Part shown: positions 8,526-15,888 of the stretch, piece by piece | Layout: each line of letters opens with the position of its first letter | Position numbering within the stretch: position 1 is the first letter of the stretch | From: Rhodopseudomonas infernalis | GTDB taxonomy: Bacteria > Pseudomonadota > Alphaproteobacteria > Rhizobiales > Xanthobacteraceae | NCBI RefSeq assembly: GCF_022271405.1 | Contig: NZ_JAJNAL010000003.1 | Coordinates: 62,001 to 126,000 of the forward strand | Direction of reading: 5' to 3' | Length of the DNA: 64,000 nt | The notes under the pieces: model-generated | What the model was told of the DNA's origin: nothing | The model's database searches: none | The model's input: only the letters and a program-made list of their open reading frames with translations | Position numbers and translations under genes: made by a program

Positions 8526-8810
8526 CAGGCTGATCACCGGCGCGCGTCACCAGCATGGTGGCGACGCTGCCGGATCCGGCCAGGCTGAGCGAGACCGAAG
8601 GCGATGCGCCGGGAGCGGAGTCGGGCGTCGGCGTCCTTGATGCAGGTCAAAGCCGCAGCCCCGCTCGCGGTCATTTACTTGCGGACAAAGGCCGATCAAC
8701 CATGGGTAAAACCCGCTCCCCGACGCACGTCCAGCTTTCGGCGGCCTGTGATTGGCGGTAGGTTCGACGGGTCATCAGGTCGGGGATCAGCGGTGCTGCG
8801 CAAAGCTTTC

Positions 8811-9791
8811 ATGAAAGTGTTTTCGGCCCATCCGGTCGAGACCATCGCCGCGTGCACCGGTCTGTTCATGATCCTGCTCGGCGTCGCGCTCGGCACGCAA
8901 TCGGGCTGGATCTGGTTCTGGGGCCAGATCTCGGCGATCTGCGGCGCCAGCCTCGCGACGCTCGCAGTGGTGTGGACGGTCCGTCAGCGCGCCGCCGAGG
9001 CGCGCACCGCCGCCCACCTCAACGTGCTGGCGCGCCAGCTCGAGACCTCGATCAGCCAGATCCACAAATCGATCAAAGGCGGCCGCGACGAGTCGCTGCC
9101 CTCGGCCGTGTATCTGGCGCAGATCGAGCAGTGCATCGACAATCTGATCGGCGTCACCCACGAGATCGGCGAGATCACCGGCCGGCAGCTGCCGTTCGAC
9201 GTGATCGAGATGCTGACGGCGCGCGACACGCTGCAGATCGAGGCGCGGATCACCGATACAACGGCGCCGGAGCGCAAGCTCGCGACCGAGACCGAGAATT
9301 GCCCGGCCTGCAAGAAGGCGGTGGAATTTCAGATCGGCAGCCTGCCCGGCGACAGCGCCAAGCCGACCTGCCCGCATTGCGGCCAGCGCTTCCACGCCCA
9401 CCGCTCCACCTCCGGCAACATCTTCCTGCGGATGCCGGGGGCTTCGCAGTTCACCCGGGCGGTGTCGGTCAATTGCCCGGTCTGCGCCAGCAAGATCCCG
9501 GCGAATATCGACCAGGGCAAGCAGCATGCGGAGACGCGGTTCTGCTTCTCCTGCGGCGCCAAGGTCAGCATCGATCCGCAGGCGCAGCAATGCACGCTGG
9601 TCGGCAAGCAGGACCGCCTGCCCGGCGCCGTCAACAGCGCCGGCACGCTGGTGTGCGAGAAATGCGGCGACCCCGCCCAGGTGCTGACCTCGAACAGCGC
9701 CGGCACCTACGGCATCTGCCGTAAGGACGACGGCCTGGTGTTCCTCGCCGCGAACTCCGCCGCGCCGCCGCGAAGCGACGCCGCGGAGTAA
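8811..9791 (+). CDS. Membrane-anchored multi-zinc-ribbon protein
   Basis: 326 residues from the ATG at 8811. A GTG at 8793, after a GGGGA stretch, is an alternative. Two N-terminal hydrophobic segments (AACTGLFMILLGVALGT and FWGQISAICGASLATLAVVW) are followed by a helical region of about 100 residues (LARQLETSISQIHKSI). The C-terminal half has several paired cysteine motifs: CPACKK, CPHCGQ, CPVCAS, CFSCGA and CEKCGD. These look like two or three zinc ribbons. No named family is recognised. A scaffold or regulatory role at the membrane is a guess from architecture. Confidence 0.65.
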   Translation: MKVFSAHPVETIAACTGLFMILLGVALGTQSGWIWFWGQISAICGASLATLAVVWTVRQRAAEARTAAHLNVLARQLETSISQIHKSIKGGRDESLPSAVYLAQIEQCIDNLIGVTHEIGEITGRQLPFDVIEMLTARDTLQIEARITDTTAPERKLATETENCPACKKAVEFQIGSLPGDSAKPTCPHCGQRFHAHRSTSGNIFLRMPGASQFTRAVSVNCPVCASKIPANIDQGKQHAETRFCFSCGAKVSIDPQAQQCTLVGKQDRLPGAVNSAGTLVCEKCGDPAQVLTSNSAGTYGICRKDDGLVFLAANSAAPPRSDAAE

Positions 9792-9954: not shown

Positions 9955-11136
9955 ATGAGCAATGCTCCGCATTTCGATATCGACGTCGCCGCGTTCTGGG
10001 CCGATCCTTATCCCGCACTCGCGAAGATGCGCGCGGAAGCGCCGATCGCTTTCGTGCCGCAGCTCGGCTCGGTGGTGCTGACGCGGCGCGACGACATCTT
10101 CATCACCGAGAAGCGCATCGACGTGTTCTCGTCGCATCAGCCTGCCGGGCTGATGAACAAGCTGATGGGCCACAACATGATGCGCAAGGATGGCGACGCG
10201 CATCTGGCCGAGCGCACCGCGATGTTTCCCGCAGTATCGCCGCGCACCGTCAAGGACACCTGGCGCACCCAGTTTCAAGCCCACGCCGATCGCATCCTCG
10301 ATGAGCTGGCGCCGCAAGGCCACGCCGATCTGGTCAAGGCGTTCGCGCTGCCGCTATCGGGCGAGTGCCTGAAGGCGATCACCGGGCTCACCAATATCAA
10401 GTATCACGAGATGGATGCGTGGTCGCAGGCGATGATCGACGGCATCGCCAACTACACCGGCGACGCCGCGGTCGAGGCGCGCTGCCACGCGGCGACGGCC
10501 GGCATCGACGCGGCGATCGACGACATGGTCCCGGTGCTGCGCGCCCATCCCGACACGTCGATCCTCAGCGTCTTGCTCGGCGCCGGCATGGCGATGGACA
10601 GCATCCGCGCCAACATCAAGCTGGCGATCTCCGGCGGCCAGAACGAGCCGCGCGACGCGATCGCGGGCTGCATCTGGGCGCTGCTGACGCATCCGGCCGA
10701 ATACGCCAAGGTGGTCGCCGGGCAAGCGAGCTGGCTCGACGTGTTCGAGGAGTACGCCCGCTGGATCGCGCCGATCGGGATGTCGCCGCGCCGCGTGGCA
10801 AAGCCGTTCCATCACCGGGGCGTCGATTTCGAACCGGAGGACCGCGTGTTCTTCATGTTCGGCTCGGCCAATCGCGACGAGGCCTGCTTCAGCGATCCCG
10901 ACGTGTTCGATGTCAGCCGCGATCACGCCAAGAGCATCGCGTTCGGCGCCGGGCCTCATTATTGCGCCGGCGCGTTCGCGTCGCGCGCGATGGTGGCCGA
11001 TGTCGCGCTGCCGAGCGTGTTCGCGCGGCTTAAGGACCTGCGGCTCGATGCGCGCGAGCCGGTGCGGATCGGCGGCTGGGCGTTCCGCGGCCTGCTCAAC
11101 CTGCCGGTCGCTTGGGAAAACGCGGCACCGAATTGA
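9955..11136 (+). CDS. Cytochrome P450
   Basis: 393 residues from ATG 9955; the longer 9910 start lacks support. The haem-binding loop FGAGPHYCAGAFASR places the thiolate Cys at residue 337. The I-helix region is SGGQNEPRDAI rather than the common AGxDT, as in a subset of bacterial P450s. EEYARWIAP carries the K-helix-equivalent ExxR. Soluble class I enzyme, so it needs a ferredoxin and a reductase, neither of which is encoded beside it. Substrate unknown. The next gene starts 58 bp downstream on the same strand and may be co-transcribed. Confidence 0.88.
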   Translation: MSNAPHFDIDVAAFWADPYPALAKMRAEAPIAFVPQLGSVVLTRRDDIFITEKRIDVFSSHQPAGLMNKLMGHNMMRKDGDAHLAERTAMFPAVSPRTVKDTWRTQFQAHADRILDELAPQGHADLVKAFALPLSGECLKAITGLTNIKYHEMDAWSQAMIDGIANYTGDAAVEARCHAATAGIDAAIDDMVPVLRAHPDTSILSVLLGAGMAMDSIRANIKLAISGGQNEPRDAIAGCIWALLTHPAEYAKVVAGQASWLDVFEEYARWIAPIGMSPRRVAKPFHHRGVDFEPEDRVFFMFGSANRDEACFSDPDVFDVSRDHAKSIAFGAGPHYCAGAFASRAMVADVALPSVFARLKDLRLDAREPVRIGGWAFRGLLNLPVAWENAAPN

Positions 11137-11193
11137 AGCCGTCACGTCGTCTCTGCTAAGGGAGAGACGTTTTGGAATCGTTTGGGGGCGCGC

Positions 11194-11814
11194 GTGGCCG
11201 AAGCTGAATCCACCCGCCGCGGACGTCCGGGGCCGCAAGGGCCACGGGGACGTCCCGGCGAACCAGGTCGACCGGGACCGCAGGGGCATCCGGGACGGCC
11301 GGGGCCGGAAGGCCCGCGCGGCAAGCCCGGCCCGATCGGCAAACCCGGCCCGCAGGGCAAGGCCGGCCCGCAAGGCAAGCCCGGCATCGACGGCAAGCCG
11401 GGGCCGCAAGGGCCCCACGGCAAGCCCGGCCCTGACGGCAAGCCAGGTCCGGTCGGTCCCGAGGGCAAGGCCGGCCCGCAGGGTCCCCGCGGCGAGCAGG
11501 GCCTGCGCGGCGAGCAAGGCCCACGTGGCGAGGCAGGCCCGCCCGGCGCACTGCCCTCGATCGAGCAGGTAATGCCGTGGCTGCACCTGCTGTTCGACGC
11601 CTATGAGGACTACAAGGCGAAGCGCGAGCAGGATGCGCGCGACCGCGCCGAGCGCGAGGCCGAGGAGGCGCGCGAAGCCGCAGAGCATGCCGCTGCGGAG
11701 CGCGAGATGGCCGAAGCGCTGGCGCAGGAGGATCCTGTCCCGGACGACGAGACCGACGACGCCAAGGATCGTGACAAGAAGCACAAGAAAAAGCGGCACA
11801 AGCAGAAAGACTGA
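11194..11814 (+). CDS. Collagen-like Gly-X-Y repeat protein
   Basis: 206 residues from a GTG at 11194, preceded by GGGGGC. Residues about 9-117 are an uninterrupted run of about 36 Gly-X-Y triplets with many GKP, GPQ and GPR units, the hallmark of bacterial collagen-like triple helices. A short globular linker ([21 protein letters not shown]) leads to a strongly charged Glu/Arg/Ala helix ([19 protein letters not shown]), probably a coiled coil, and a Lys-rich tail ([13 protein letters not shown]). There is no signal peptide or membrane anchor, unlike most bacterial collagens. It probably trimerises; its function is unknown. Confidence 0.75.
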
Positions 11815-12557: not shown

Positions 12558-12617
12558 ACCGCGGAACAGCGACGGCACGCCGACGTTGAACAAGCCTATT
12601 CACGAGGGCATGAGGCA

Positions 12618-12866
12618 ATGATGAGCGACGTCACCTACAAGATCGTCGAACACGACGGCGGCTGGGCCTATCAGGTCGACGGCAGCTTTTCCGAGACCTT
12701 CCCGAGCCACGAGGCTGCGCTGACCGCAGCCAAGCGCGCGGCGGCCGAGCAGCGTGCGCCGGGCTCGACCGAAGCGATCCAATACGAAGATCCGTCCGGC
12801 CGCTGGCACGAAGAAACCGCCCCCGGCAACGACCGCCCCAACACCACGGTGGTCGACAAGGGCTGA
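12618..12866 (+). CDS. DUF2188 domain protein
   Basis: 82 residues. YKIVEHDGGWAYQVDGSFSETFPSHEAALTAAK matches the DUF2188 pattern of strand, aromatic Gly-Trp turn, strand and helix. It ends in a polar tail. Family function is unknown, although members are often linked to stress genes. A second ATG three bases downstream of the first is an equally good start. May be co-transcribed with the SOUL gene. Confidence 0.75.
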   Translation: MMSDVTYKIVEHDGGWAYQVDGSFSETFPSHEAALTAAKRAAAEQRAPGSTEAIQYEDPSGRWHEETAPGNDRPNTTVVDKG

Positions 12867-12937
12867 GTGACGCACGAAGCTCGCTGAGCGCTTAAAGTGA
12901 GTATCCTCACAAATTCGGTGAGCGTCCTCACAAATTC

Positions 12938-13027
12938 CGTCATGGCCGGGCTTGTCCCGGCCATCCACGTCTTCAGGCGTTTCCGTCAGCAAGGCGTGGA
13001 TGCCCGGCACGAGGCCGGGCATGACGG
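12938..13027. repeat. Intergenic repeat, GTCATGGCCGGGCTTGTCCCGGCC type
   Basis: A 90-base element bounded by CGTCATG and CATGACG, with inner GGCCGGG...CCCGGCC and GCCCGGC...GCCGGGC hairpins. Related copies lie at 49656-49735 and 51880-51970. It is preceded by a short direct repeat TCCTCACAAATTC (12904 and 12925). Such elements are scattered through Bradyrhizobiaceae genomes. Confidence 0.75.
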
Positions 13028-13115: not shown

Positions 13116-14309
13116 CTACACCAACCCGAGATCGACCGGCTTCGTCCCCGCAAACACTCTTCCAACGGCGGCGGCGTCGAGGCCGTACATGCGCTGGATC
13201 AGGCCGGCGAACAGCGCGCGATAGTCGGTGAGCACCGGGTAGTCGCGGTTCTGAAACAGCCGCGCCTGCTCGACCTTGACCTGATCGCCGACGATCCGTC
13301 CGCCGTTCAGGCCGCCGCCCAGCACCCAATACACGCTGCCGTGGCCATGGTCTGTGCCGCGATCGCCGTTCTCGCGAAAGGTGCGGCCGAATTCGGAAAT
13401 CACCACCACCACGGTGTCGCGCCACGCGCCGGGCCCGATCTCTTCGCAGAATCCGCTGAGGCCGCGTCCGAGTTCGCCAAGCCGATCGGCCAGATAGCCG
13501 GTCGCTGCTCCCTGGTTCACATGCGTGTCCCAGCCGCCGACATCGACGAAGCCGAGATTGAACTGCTCCCGCATCAGCCGGCCGATGCGGCGCGCCGACA
13601 GTTCGAAGCCGCGCGGCGATACTGCGCCGCGATTGGCTGCCGTCATCTCGTCGGAGATCGACTTCACCACCTCGTCGCGCACACGAAATCCTTCGGAAAC
13701 AGCCGAGGCCAGCTTGGTCCTGGCGTACATCTCCTTGATCAGCTGCGCCTGTCGATCGTCGACGCCCGGCTTGCCGATAGTGTTGAGGGCGATGTTGGGG
13801 ATCTCGGCCTTGCCGCGGAAAATCAGCGGCAACTGATCGGTGAAGGCGATCGGCCGCACGCGCGTCAGTTCCGCGGCGAGCCGGCTCATGAAGCCGGAAC
13901 GATAATCGCGTGTGCCGCCCGTCGCCTGACCGAGCTCGATCGTGTCCTGGGTCTCGAAATGACTGCGGGTGACATCGTCGCTGGTGCCGGCAAACGGCAC
14001 GAAGGCGATCTCGCGCTTCGCCCACAGCGGCGCAAGGCTGTCGCGCAGCGCCGGATGCAGGCCCCAATCGGCGTCGAGCGCCACCGCGGCGTTCGGATTG
14101 CCGACGTCGGGCTTTGCGATCGCCAGCGTCGGCCGGGATTCGTAGTAGAACGATGACGACACCGGCACGACGACATTCGCCGCATCGTAGGCGCCGCGCA
14201 AGAACACCACGAGCAGCCTGGCGTCGGTTGCCGGCGCGGCCCAGACGCGGCCGGCGACCGTCATCGGCGCCAGCGCCGCGAAAGCCTTGAGCAGATCACG
14301 ACGGTTCAT
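13116..14309 (-). CDS. DUF1501 family protein
   Basis: 397 residues from ATG 14309, giving MNRRDLLKAFAALAPMTVAG, a twin-arginine-like signal. DUF1501 features include LLVVFLRGAYDAANVVVP near the start, GGWDTHVNQGAATG in the middle, VVVVISEFGRT and TDHGHGSVYWVLGGGLNGG. These resemble the metal-site layout of sulfatase/alkaline-phosphatase folds. It overlaps the DUF1800 gene by 14 bp and forms an operon with it. The pair is widespread; the biochemical role of these exported proteins is not established. Confidence 0.85.
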   Translation of the reverse strand: MNRRDLLKAFAALAPMTVAGRVWAAPATDARLLVVFLRGAYDAANVVVPVSSSFYYESRPTLAIAKPDVGNPNAAVALDADWGLHPALRDSLAPLWAKREIAFVPFAGTSDDVTRSHFETQDTIELGQATGGTRDYRSGFMSRLAAELTRVRPIAFTDQLPLIFRGKAEIPNIALNTIGKPGVDDRQAQLIKEMYARTKLASAVSEGFRVRDEVVKSISDEMTAANRGAVSPRGFELSARRIGRLMREQFNLGFVDVGGWDTHVNQGAATGYLADRLGELGRGLSGFCEEIGPGAWRDTVVVVISEFGRTFRENGDRGTDHGHGSVYWVLGGGLNGGRIVGDQVKVEQARLFQNRDYPVLTDYRALFAGLIQRMYGLDAAAVGRVFAGTKPVDLGLV

Positions 14310-15888
14310 GGGGCGCCTCCGCACGCAGCCGGTACATGAATTCGGGTGAGGACAGAAACAGCGTGTTCCAGTCCTGCGGCGAGATCGCCTTGTCCAACGC
14401 CGTGCGTGTGGTCGCGCTGAGCGTCTGCCGCAGGCCGCCAAAGTAGAGCGCGTTCTGCACCAGCGGAAACGCCGGGCGATCCTTCGCGTCCGGGCCTTCG
14501 GGCTTGAACAGGCCGGCCGATCCCGAGCCGATCTGCCGCGCGATCTCGAAGCGCAGCATCATCTGCCCCGGTCCGCTCCAGGACTCGCTGGTCAGCGCAT
14601 AGCCGTCCGGAGTCTGGCGGTTGTACAGCCCCTCGCCGAGCCGATTGAGCCAGTTCTGGATCGGCGCGGTGTTGGCGATCACCTTGTCGTCGTAGGCGAG
14701 CCGGACGGCGGAGTAGACGTAGCTCACCGGATCCTTGAAGCGCTCGCTGGATTTAAGCGCGGCTTCGAACTCGGGTGACTGGATCATTGCACTCAGCACG
14801 GCTGCGATGTCGCCGTCCGATGCGGTGAAGGCCTTGGCCATCCGGGCGATCAAGGCCGGCGGCGGATTGTCCGAGACGAAGTACACCGCGATCTTGCGCG
14901 AGATGAACTGCGCCGTGGCCGGATGATGCACGATCAGATCGAGCGCCTCCTCGACCTCGGCATAGCCACGCCCCTGAATGAGATGGCCGAGAAACGTCTT
15001 GTCGCTCATGTCGTGGCGGGCCGGATTGAACTCGAAGGCGCTGTGGCGGACCAGCAGCGGCCGCAGCTCCGGCTTCAGCTTCGGATCGTCCGGCTTCAGG
15101 TCGATGCCGACCCCGGTGAAGATCTTCGCCAGCGCCTCGACGTCGGCCTGGGTGTAGCCGCTGCCGACGCCCATGGTGTGCAGCTCCATGATCTCGCGCG
15201 CGTAGTTCTCGTTGACGCGGCCGGCGGCGTTGCCGGAGTTATCGAGATAGCGCAGCATCGCCGGATGCCGCAACGTCGCGCGCAGCAGCGCGCCGAACTT
15301 GCCGAGCGCGTGGGGCCGGATCGCGCGATCCTCGTAGTCGCCGACCAGCAGCCGCAGATCGGCCTTGCCCTGATGCACGTTGAAGTGATTGAGCCAGAAC
15401 CAGCTCATCCGTTCGCGCAGCTGATCCGGCGTATACAGTGACCGCAGAATCGAGCGCGCGGCCGCCTGCTTGGCGCGGTCGGTCATCATCTGCTGCTGCG
15501 CCTGCTTGGCGGCCTTGCGCTGGTCCTCGTCGGCAATCTGGTTGGCTTCTTTAGCCTGCTCCTGCAGCGCCAGCAGGGTGGCGGGCGTGACACCGCGCGC
15601 GTCCGGCATGGCGTCGATCTGCACGCTGACGGGCCCGGGGAGCGCCGCCTCGGCAGGCGGATGCAGCTGCTGCTGCAGCCAGACGGCCACGCCGACGCCG
15701 CGAACCCGCTCGGCCGTCGAGGCGTTGACACCCCAGCTCAGCCGATCGATCAGCGCGAGGTCATGCGCCGACAGCTCGGCCGCGCGAGAACCCGTGTTGC
15801 CGAAAGTTGCCATCACGGCGACGATGGCCGCTACCGCGGCGAACTTCTTCGCGTTTCGCGTCTTGAACATCATGGCTTCGCCGTTCAT
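14296..15888 (-). CDS. DUF1800 family protein
   Basis: 530 residues with a signal peptide ending near GNTGSRAAEL. The family landmarks are visible: DRLSWGVNAST near the start, LRERMSWFWLNHFNVH in the middle, then VNENYAREIMELHTMGVGSGYTQ and HDMSDKTFLG. This is an exported protein that almost always precedes a DUF1501 partner, as here. Function is unknown. The start at 15888 is used; an ATG five codons further in is possible because neither has a strong ribosome binding site. Confidence 0.85.
   Translation of the reverse strand: MNGEAMMFKTRNAKKFAAVAAIVAVMATFGNTGSRAAELSAHDLALIDRLSWGVNASTAERVRGVGVAVWLQQQLHPPAEAALPGPVSVQIDAMPDARGVTPATLLALQEQAKEANQIADEDQRKAAKQAQQQMMTDRAKQAAARSILRSLYTPDQLRERMSWFWLNHFNVHQGKADLRLLVGDYEDRAIRPHALGKFGALLRATLRHPAMLRYLDNSGNAAGRVNENYAREIMELHTMGVGSGYTQADVEALAKIFTGVGIDLKPDDPKLKPELRPLLVRHSAFEFNPARHDMSDKTFLGHLIQGRGYAEVEEALDLIVHHPATAQFISRKIAVYFVSDNPPPALIARMAKAFTASDGDIAAVLSAMIQSPEFEAALKSSERFKDPVSYVYSAVRLAYDDKVIANTAPIQNWLNRLGEGLYNRQTPDGYALTSESWSGPGQMMLRFEIARQIGSGSAGLFKPEGPDAKDRPAFPLVQNALYFGGLRQTLSATTRTALDKAISPQDWNTLFLSSPEFMYRLRAEAPHEPS

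Follow-up and report, generated by a model that had tools for sequence, protein, structure and literature searches.

A conserved family of collagen-like proteins without an N-terminal export signal in Rhodopseudomonas and related bacteria

The window, by which we mean the whole analysed stretch of 64,000 nucleotides from Rhodopseudomonas infernalis, carries a 206-codon gene for a collagen-like protein on its forward strand. As read from the sequence, this gene extends from a GTG start codon at 11194 to the end of its stop codon at 11814, and all the parts described here lie on the same strand. The nine N-terminal residues, MAEAESTRR (11194–11220), are without a signal peptide and lead into a run of Gly-X-Y triplets (11221–11544), which has a conserved GPQGH segment in its N-terminal part. 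Behind the triplets lie a conserved segment, PWLHLIFDAWEDYK, and a predicted charged helix, likely a trimerisation coiled coil (together 11545–11730). An acidic low-complexity stretch (11731–11775), delimited by sequence reading and charge counts, and a Lys/His-rich tail of 12 residues (11776–11811), delimited by sequence reading and residue counts, complete the protein. A putative weak ribosome-binding site, GGGGG (11184–11188), was read five bases 5′ of the GTG. Further upstream, a conserved promoter-like block, AATTGAAGCCGTC...CTGCTAAGG (11131–11161), contains a −35-like TTGAAG (11133–11138), overlapping the stop codon TGA (11134–11136) of the adjacent P450 gene, and a −10-like CTAAGG (11156–11161) at a spacing of 17 bases.

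The sequence-only reading of this gene had noted about 36 uninterrupted Gly-X-Y triplets; their number is exactly 36, without a break. The window protein is a member of the Pfam Collagen family PF01391, which it matched by uninterrupted repeats with an E-value of 2.3e-19 and a score of 69.3 bits, above the curated cut-off of 27.2. The charged part noted behind the repeats corresponds to the predicted helix, and the tail that had been called poly-Lys is better named Lys/His-rich, with 11 of the last 15 residues being K, R or H. An export signal was indeed absent: nine polar residues precede the first Gly, and the N-terminus is not hydrophobic.

Relatives were collected from the genus, from the bacterial family and from named genome contigs. 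The last set comprised 45 loci from Rhodopseudomonas, Bradyrhizobium, Tardiphaga and one Hyphomicrobiales record; the three named genera are placed in Nitrobacteraceae in the NCBI taxonomy. One frame from the window's genus (L006) was identical to that of a record named R. palustris (L057). Selection for at least eight consecutive triplets together with a PW motif gave 66 distinct frames, of which three (L052, L083 and L097) were truncated or masked, and the remaining 63 are the complete relatives referred to below. In each of the 66 frames the Gly-X-Y span contained a whole number of triplets, and in 65 it was unbroken, the sole break of register being one replaced Gly in L086. The number of triplets ranged from 23 to 43 among the 63 complete relatives, with length differences in whole triplets. 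Because the register is kept in this way, a chance origin of the repeat can be excluded, and the conservation of the triplet register in relatives, on which the sequence-only reading had made its proposal depend, was confirmed. Compared with five close relatives, the gene had 70–94 codon changes at third positions and 10–32 at first or second positions, and 11–16 of 35–37 matched Gly codons differed synonymously. As judged from these sequence comparisons, it is a conserved, real gene and no repeat accident.

With a profile restricted to the C-terminal part (34 rows), matches were obtained in 127 of 391 genomes from the window's bacterial family, one in each genome and spread over 11 of 47 genera. 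In an order-wide draw, 10 of 397 genomes matched, all of them within the window's own bacterial family. The gene was present in 13 of the 16 genomes of the window's genus; in the other three (G001, G002 and G012), weak matches arose through the repeats and none with the C-terminal profile. Such patchy presence argues against the protein being essential. For the part that follows the triplets, no Pfam match was found in 34 members, nor any match in NCBIfam or among PDB sequences.

A helix spanning residues 123–179 was predicted confidently by AlphaFold2 (single chain, 36-row alignment), with ten-residue pLDDT means of 90–97, and the collagen part was undefined as a single chain (pLDDT 46–56). 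In the segment PWLHLIFDAWEDYK, P, W, L and F at positions 11, 12, 13 and 17 were invariant in all 63 relatives, and position 20 was always W or Y. Positions 6, 9, 13, 16 and 20 were hydrophobic or aromatic, and Y, F or His occupied position 23. The resulting hydrophobic heptad pattern spans three turns behind the triplets, and the predicted helix is thus likely a trimerisation coiled coil. At the other end of the rod, GPQGH[PILV]G was found in the N-terminal part in 62 of the 63 relatives, despite the variation in length from 23 to 43 triplets. Charge differed along the protein in the 63 relatives: the net charge was +4 to +13 for the collagen part, −7 to −18 for the helix with the acidic part, and +3 to +11 for the last 15 residues, 9–13 of which were K, R or H in every relative. 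Over 1987 triplets of the family, Lys was in the X position 407 times and in the Y position three times.

The start codon was GTG in 61 of the 63 relatives and the second residue Ala in 62, with the start codon placed 5–12 residues ahead of the first triplet. This distance follows from the choice of starts, for which only 5–12 residues were allowed and preference was given to codons that precede A, E or V. The highest mean hydropathy over 19 residues within the first 60 was −1.27 in the window protein and at most −0.16 across the 63 relatives, and the hydropathy scan found an N-terminal hydrophobic segment in none of the 63. A TTG at 11182, four codons upstream of the GTG, would add just four residues, and a TTG was found at an equal distance upstream in 6 of the 66 frames. 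We also considered a longer start bearing a signal peptide, one of the two findings that the sequence-only reading had said would refute its proposal. No such start was found, and it was rejected on the strength of the conserved GTG and of the promoter-like block, which begins 58–81 bases upstream in 60 of the 63 relatives. A putative transcription start near 11168 would lie too close to the GTG for a longer protein with a signal. With no longer start found that would supply a signal, and with the register of the triplets kept in the relatives, an internal location appears to be the best reading of the sequences.

The promoter-like block has the family form AATTGAAGCCGTC...CTGnTAnaa, and in 56 of the 60 relatives with the block it begins 59–65 bases before the start codon. 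It looks like a sigma-70-type promoter. No clear block was seen in L048, L080 and L085, the last of which has a recognisable weaker form. In 11 of the 16 genus genomes, the strict pattern occurred exactly once, at the collagen-like gene, and a reversed control pattern occurred in none of the 16. The five genomes without the strict pattern were the three that lack the gene and two (G009 and G010) that carry a variant. EcfG-type promoters follow the pattern GGAAC-N15-18-CGTT. Such a promoter was found upstream of none of the 63 relatives and an RpoN-like one upstream of a single relative.

In part of Bradyrhizobium, a further element was found upstream of this block. The exact palindrome TTGATGTTGATCAA was present 88–100 bases before the start codon in 10 of the 63 relatives, all of them Bradyrhizobium records (L064, L066, L076, L079, L085, L086, L088, L089, L090 and L096), and with one mismatch in L063 and L069, which makes twelve Bradyrhizobium relatives in all. 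Its centre lies 29–31 bases before the −35-like TTG in 10 of the twelve and 21 bases before it in two. The palindrome equals what we take to be the FNR/FixK consensus. In the 671,504 positions of the loci at least 6 kb long, only 13 exact copies of TTGAT-N4-ATCAA occurred, so that most copies are the sites upstream of the collagen-like gene. These observations suggest control by low oxygen in part of Bradyrhizobium. The window had no FNR/FixK-like site, the best candidate within 400 bases having four mismatches; the Bradyrhizobium box is therefore no direct evidence on the window gene. Transcript-start and transposon data exist for Bradyrhizobium (PMC4842269, PMC8225791).

Two further collagen-like ORFs were found in the window's genome. 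One (G000 C67, L003) scored above the Pfam cut-off and, read by eye, begins with a signal peptide, MLRGSIIAGAAIVVMTSAHAQA. The other (G000 C78, L004) scored below the cut-off with about nine triplets and, also by eye, begins with a lipoprotein signal, MRLGSSILMVTAALALAGC, with LAGC. Both share Gly-X-Y repeats with the window protein but differ from it in their export signals and shorter repeats. In the C67 stretch, Lys was in Y six times and never in X, which is the reverse of the window family; in the short C78 stretch, Lys was in X once and never in Y. Since both ORFs begin with export signals, the host exports other collagen-like proteins.

Collagen-like proteins are well known in bacteria. 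The streptococcal Scl1 and Scl2 and the Legionella Lcl (NCBIfam NF038330, NF038329 and NF046116) have Gly-X-Y repeats in common with the window protein, which matched them through the repeats at 60.7 of 325 bits (Scl2), 55.6 of 400 bits (Scl1) and 47.8 of 500 bits (Lcl), far below the cut-offs. In contrast to these adhesins, which have a signal peptide and a wall or surface anchor, neither a signal peptide nor LPXTG was read in the window protein, and the family as a whole lacks the N-terminal hydrophobic segment. According to passages on Scl2 (PMC4066190), the trimerisation domain adjoins the repeats there; the helix beside the repeats is C-terminal in the window protein and N-terminal in Scl2.

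Recombinant collagen-like proteins of R. palustris, Methylobacterium and Solibacter were reportedly studied by Xu et al. in Biomacromolecules in 2010, and that of R. palustris is said to have formed, without hydroxyproline, a triple helix that melts near 37 °C. With three collagen-like ORFs in the window's genome, that protein may or may not be of the window type. BclA-type exosporium collagens, with their BclA N- and C-terminal domains, come from spore formers, and the host family is not known to sporulate.

The sequence-only reading had placed the gene beside a P450; as a functional link, this adjacency found little support in the neighbourhood. Neighbours were searched for by tblastn and tallied from rows at 60 loci (59 fetched loci and the window), with L114 and L115 (genus g20) left aside as too diverged for tblastn. 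For the P450, the count covers 56 loci, because L083, L097, L098 and L099 had too little upstream sequence. The P450 was within 2 kb upstream in 14 of these (the window and 13 further loci), and L096 had it at 3.5 kb; none was found upstream at L058 and L059, two named Rhodopseudomonas loci. Among the neighbours searched for, the most frequent were DUF2188, which follows in the same orientation at 45 of the 60 loci, and DUF2277, which lies downstream in convergent orientation at 44; genes for a ferritin-domain protein and a BFD-like ferredoxin were often found some kb beyond. In the window, the search detected no DUF2277 next to the collagen-like gene, and at L105, L107 and L110, which belong to other genera, it detected none of these neighbours. 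The identities of DUF2277, ferritin and BFD, and of the DUF1501 and DUF1800 genes described below, were supported by Pfam. We take the proximity of DUF2277 and DUF2188 as inherited gene order rather than partnership, and conclude that the collagen-like gene stands alone, with no conserved operon partner pointing to a process.

Four other explanations of the gene were weighed against this background. Since the P450 is the immediate neighbour in the window and at 13 further loci, the P450, with a SOUL haem-binding protein, and the collagen-like gene could form one pathway or operon. This is very improbable given the small share of loci with a close P450, a SOUL gene downstream in only 8 of the 60 loci and the promoter-like block at the very end of the P450 gene, and a partnership of the two as a functional unit was rejected on these neighbourhood counts and the block. 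A phage tail fibre or a remnant of a mobile element is hardly credible. Many Gram-negative collagen-like genes are parts of phage tails, which would speak for such an origin; against it, the whole protein or its C-terminal part had no match in 50,697 phage records and the C-terminal part none in 72,556 plasmid records, and the promoter-like block and the neighbours are common to many loci. The recurrent neighbours, such as SDR, DUF2277, DUF2188 and ferritin-like genes, are chromosomal, unlike the surroundings of a phage tail-fibre gene.

An unlikely explanation is that the protein acts at the surface or in the matrix like other bacterial collagens, leaving the cell without an N-terminal signal by type I secretion, lysis or vesicles. 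Its charged low-complexity tails are compatible with such non-classical export, but the Lys/His-rich C-terminus is unlike type I secretion signals, and no secretion genes were noticed by eye in the maps of eleven loci. The hydropathy of the 63 N-termini and the ordinary signals on the genome's other two collagen-like ORFs also argue against it. In favour of a surface role, passages of a review (PMC8968730) list adhesion, biofilm, host entry, immune evasion, motility and spore formation among the functions of prokaryotic collagen-like proteins, which on our reading of those passages are surface, host-contact or spore roles. The invariant and aromatic positions of PWLHLIFDAWEDYK could instead make this segment an amphipathic anchor, the protein being peripheral to the membrane with its rod reaching into the cytoplasm. 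We regard this as decidedly unlikely: the heptad spacing suits a coiled coil equally well, and the highest 19-residue hydropathy mean anywhere in the 63 relatives was 0.93, far from a membrane span.

The reading that we prefer, to which we give about an even chance, is that of a one-gene unit making a cytoplasmic collagen-like trimer whose rod serves as a spacer or scaffold. The gene would be transcribed independently from its own promoter and its product would remain in the cytoplasm. Three chains would join via the helix directly behind the Gly-X-Y stretch, with hydrophobic residues in a and d positions (I123, V126, L130, L133, Y137 and Y140) forming the joint, which would let the 36 triplets form a triple helix without hydroxyproline. 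The collagen rise is 0.286 nm per residue, from which the rod would be about 30 nm long in the window protein and 20–37 nm across the relatives. At one end of the rod, the strongly conserved basic segment of 22 residues in the GPQGH region probably binds a partner. At the other end, three tails, each acidic and then Lys/His-rich, probably hold a partner protein or a polyanion, for example polyphosphate or a nucleic acid. Because an acidic stretch comes before the basic tail, it is not evident that polyanions would bind. Of the internal scaffold or nucleic-acid binder that had been proposed at the outset, the internal location thus stands as the best reading; for nucleic-acid binding, the basic tail is the one feature in favour, and a strongly acidic stretch precedes it.

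A broader version of the cytoplasmic one-gene reading is speculative and, on balance, doubtful. The family, limited as sampled to one family of Alphaproteobacteria, might be a cytoplasmic bacterial collagen, an intracellular triple-helix spacer whose length is tuned by lineage between 20 and 37 nm and which connects Lys/His-rich tails that bind polyanions with a conserved binding site near the N-terminus, under oxygen-responsive control of the FNR/FixK type in part of Bradyrhizobium.

No paper on this collagen-like family was found among the matches listed in the open-licence literature. As far as our searches show, what is new is the family, with its C-terminal domain, the conserved absence of an export signal, the promoter-like block, the conserved segment in the rod and the Bradyrhizobium box. 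A conserved family without a signal would offer a direct test of an intracellular job for a triple helix in bacteria, in hosts that are photosynthetic and root-nodule bacteria and are genetically tractable. It also offers a natural collagen free of hydroxyproline, with an unusual pattern of Lys in X and probably its own folding domain.

Other ORFs of the window were observed in passing. An ORF at 8604–9791 on the forward strand has several Cys pairs and gave weak matches of the zinc-ribbon type below the cut-offs. Overlapping DUF1501 and DUF1800 genes, assigned by Pfam, lie at 13116–15888 on the reverse strand, and both were found near the collagen-like gene in four of five Rhodopseudomonas loci (L055–L059). 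An ORF at 12600–13022 on the reverse strand, starting MPGLVPGIHALL...GRDKPGHDG, had no Pfam match and no inverted repeat at least 14 bases long. It runs antisense to the DUF2188 gene at 12618–12866, and this overlap may be the source of its 33 matching loci.
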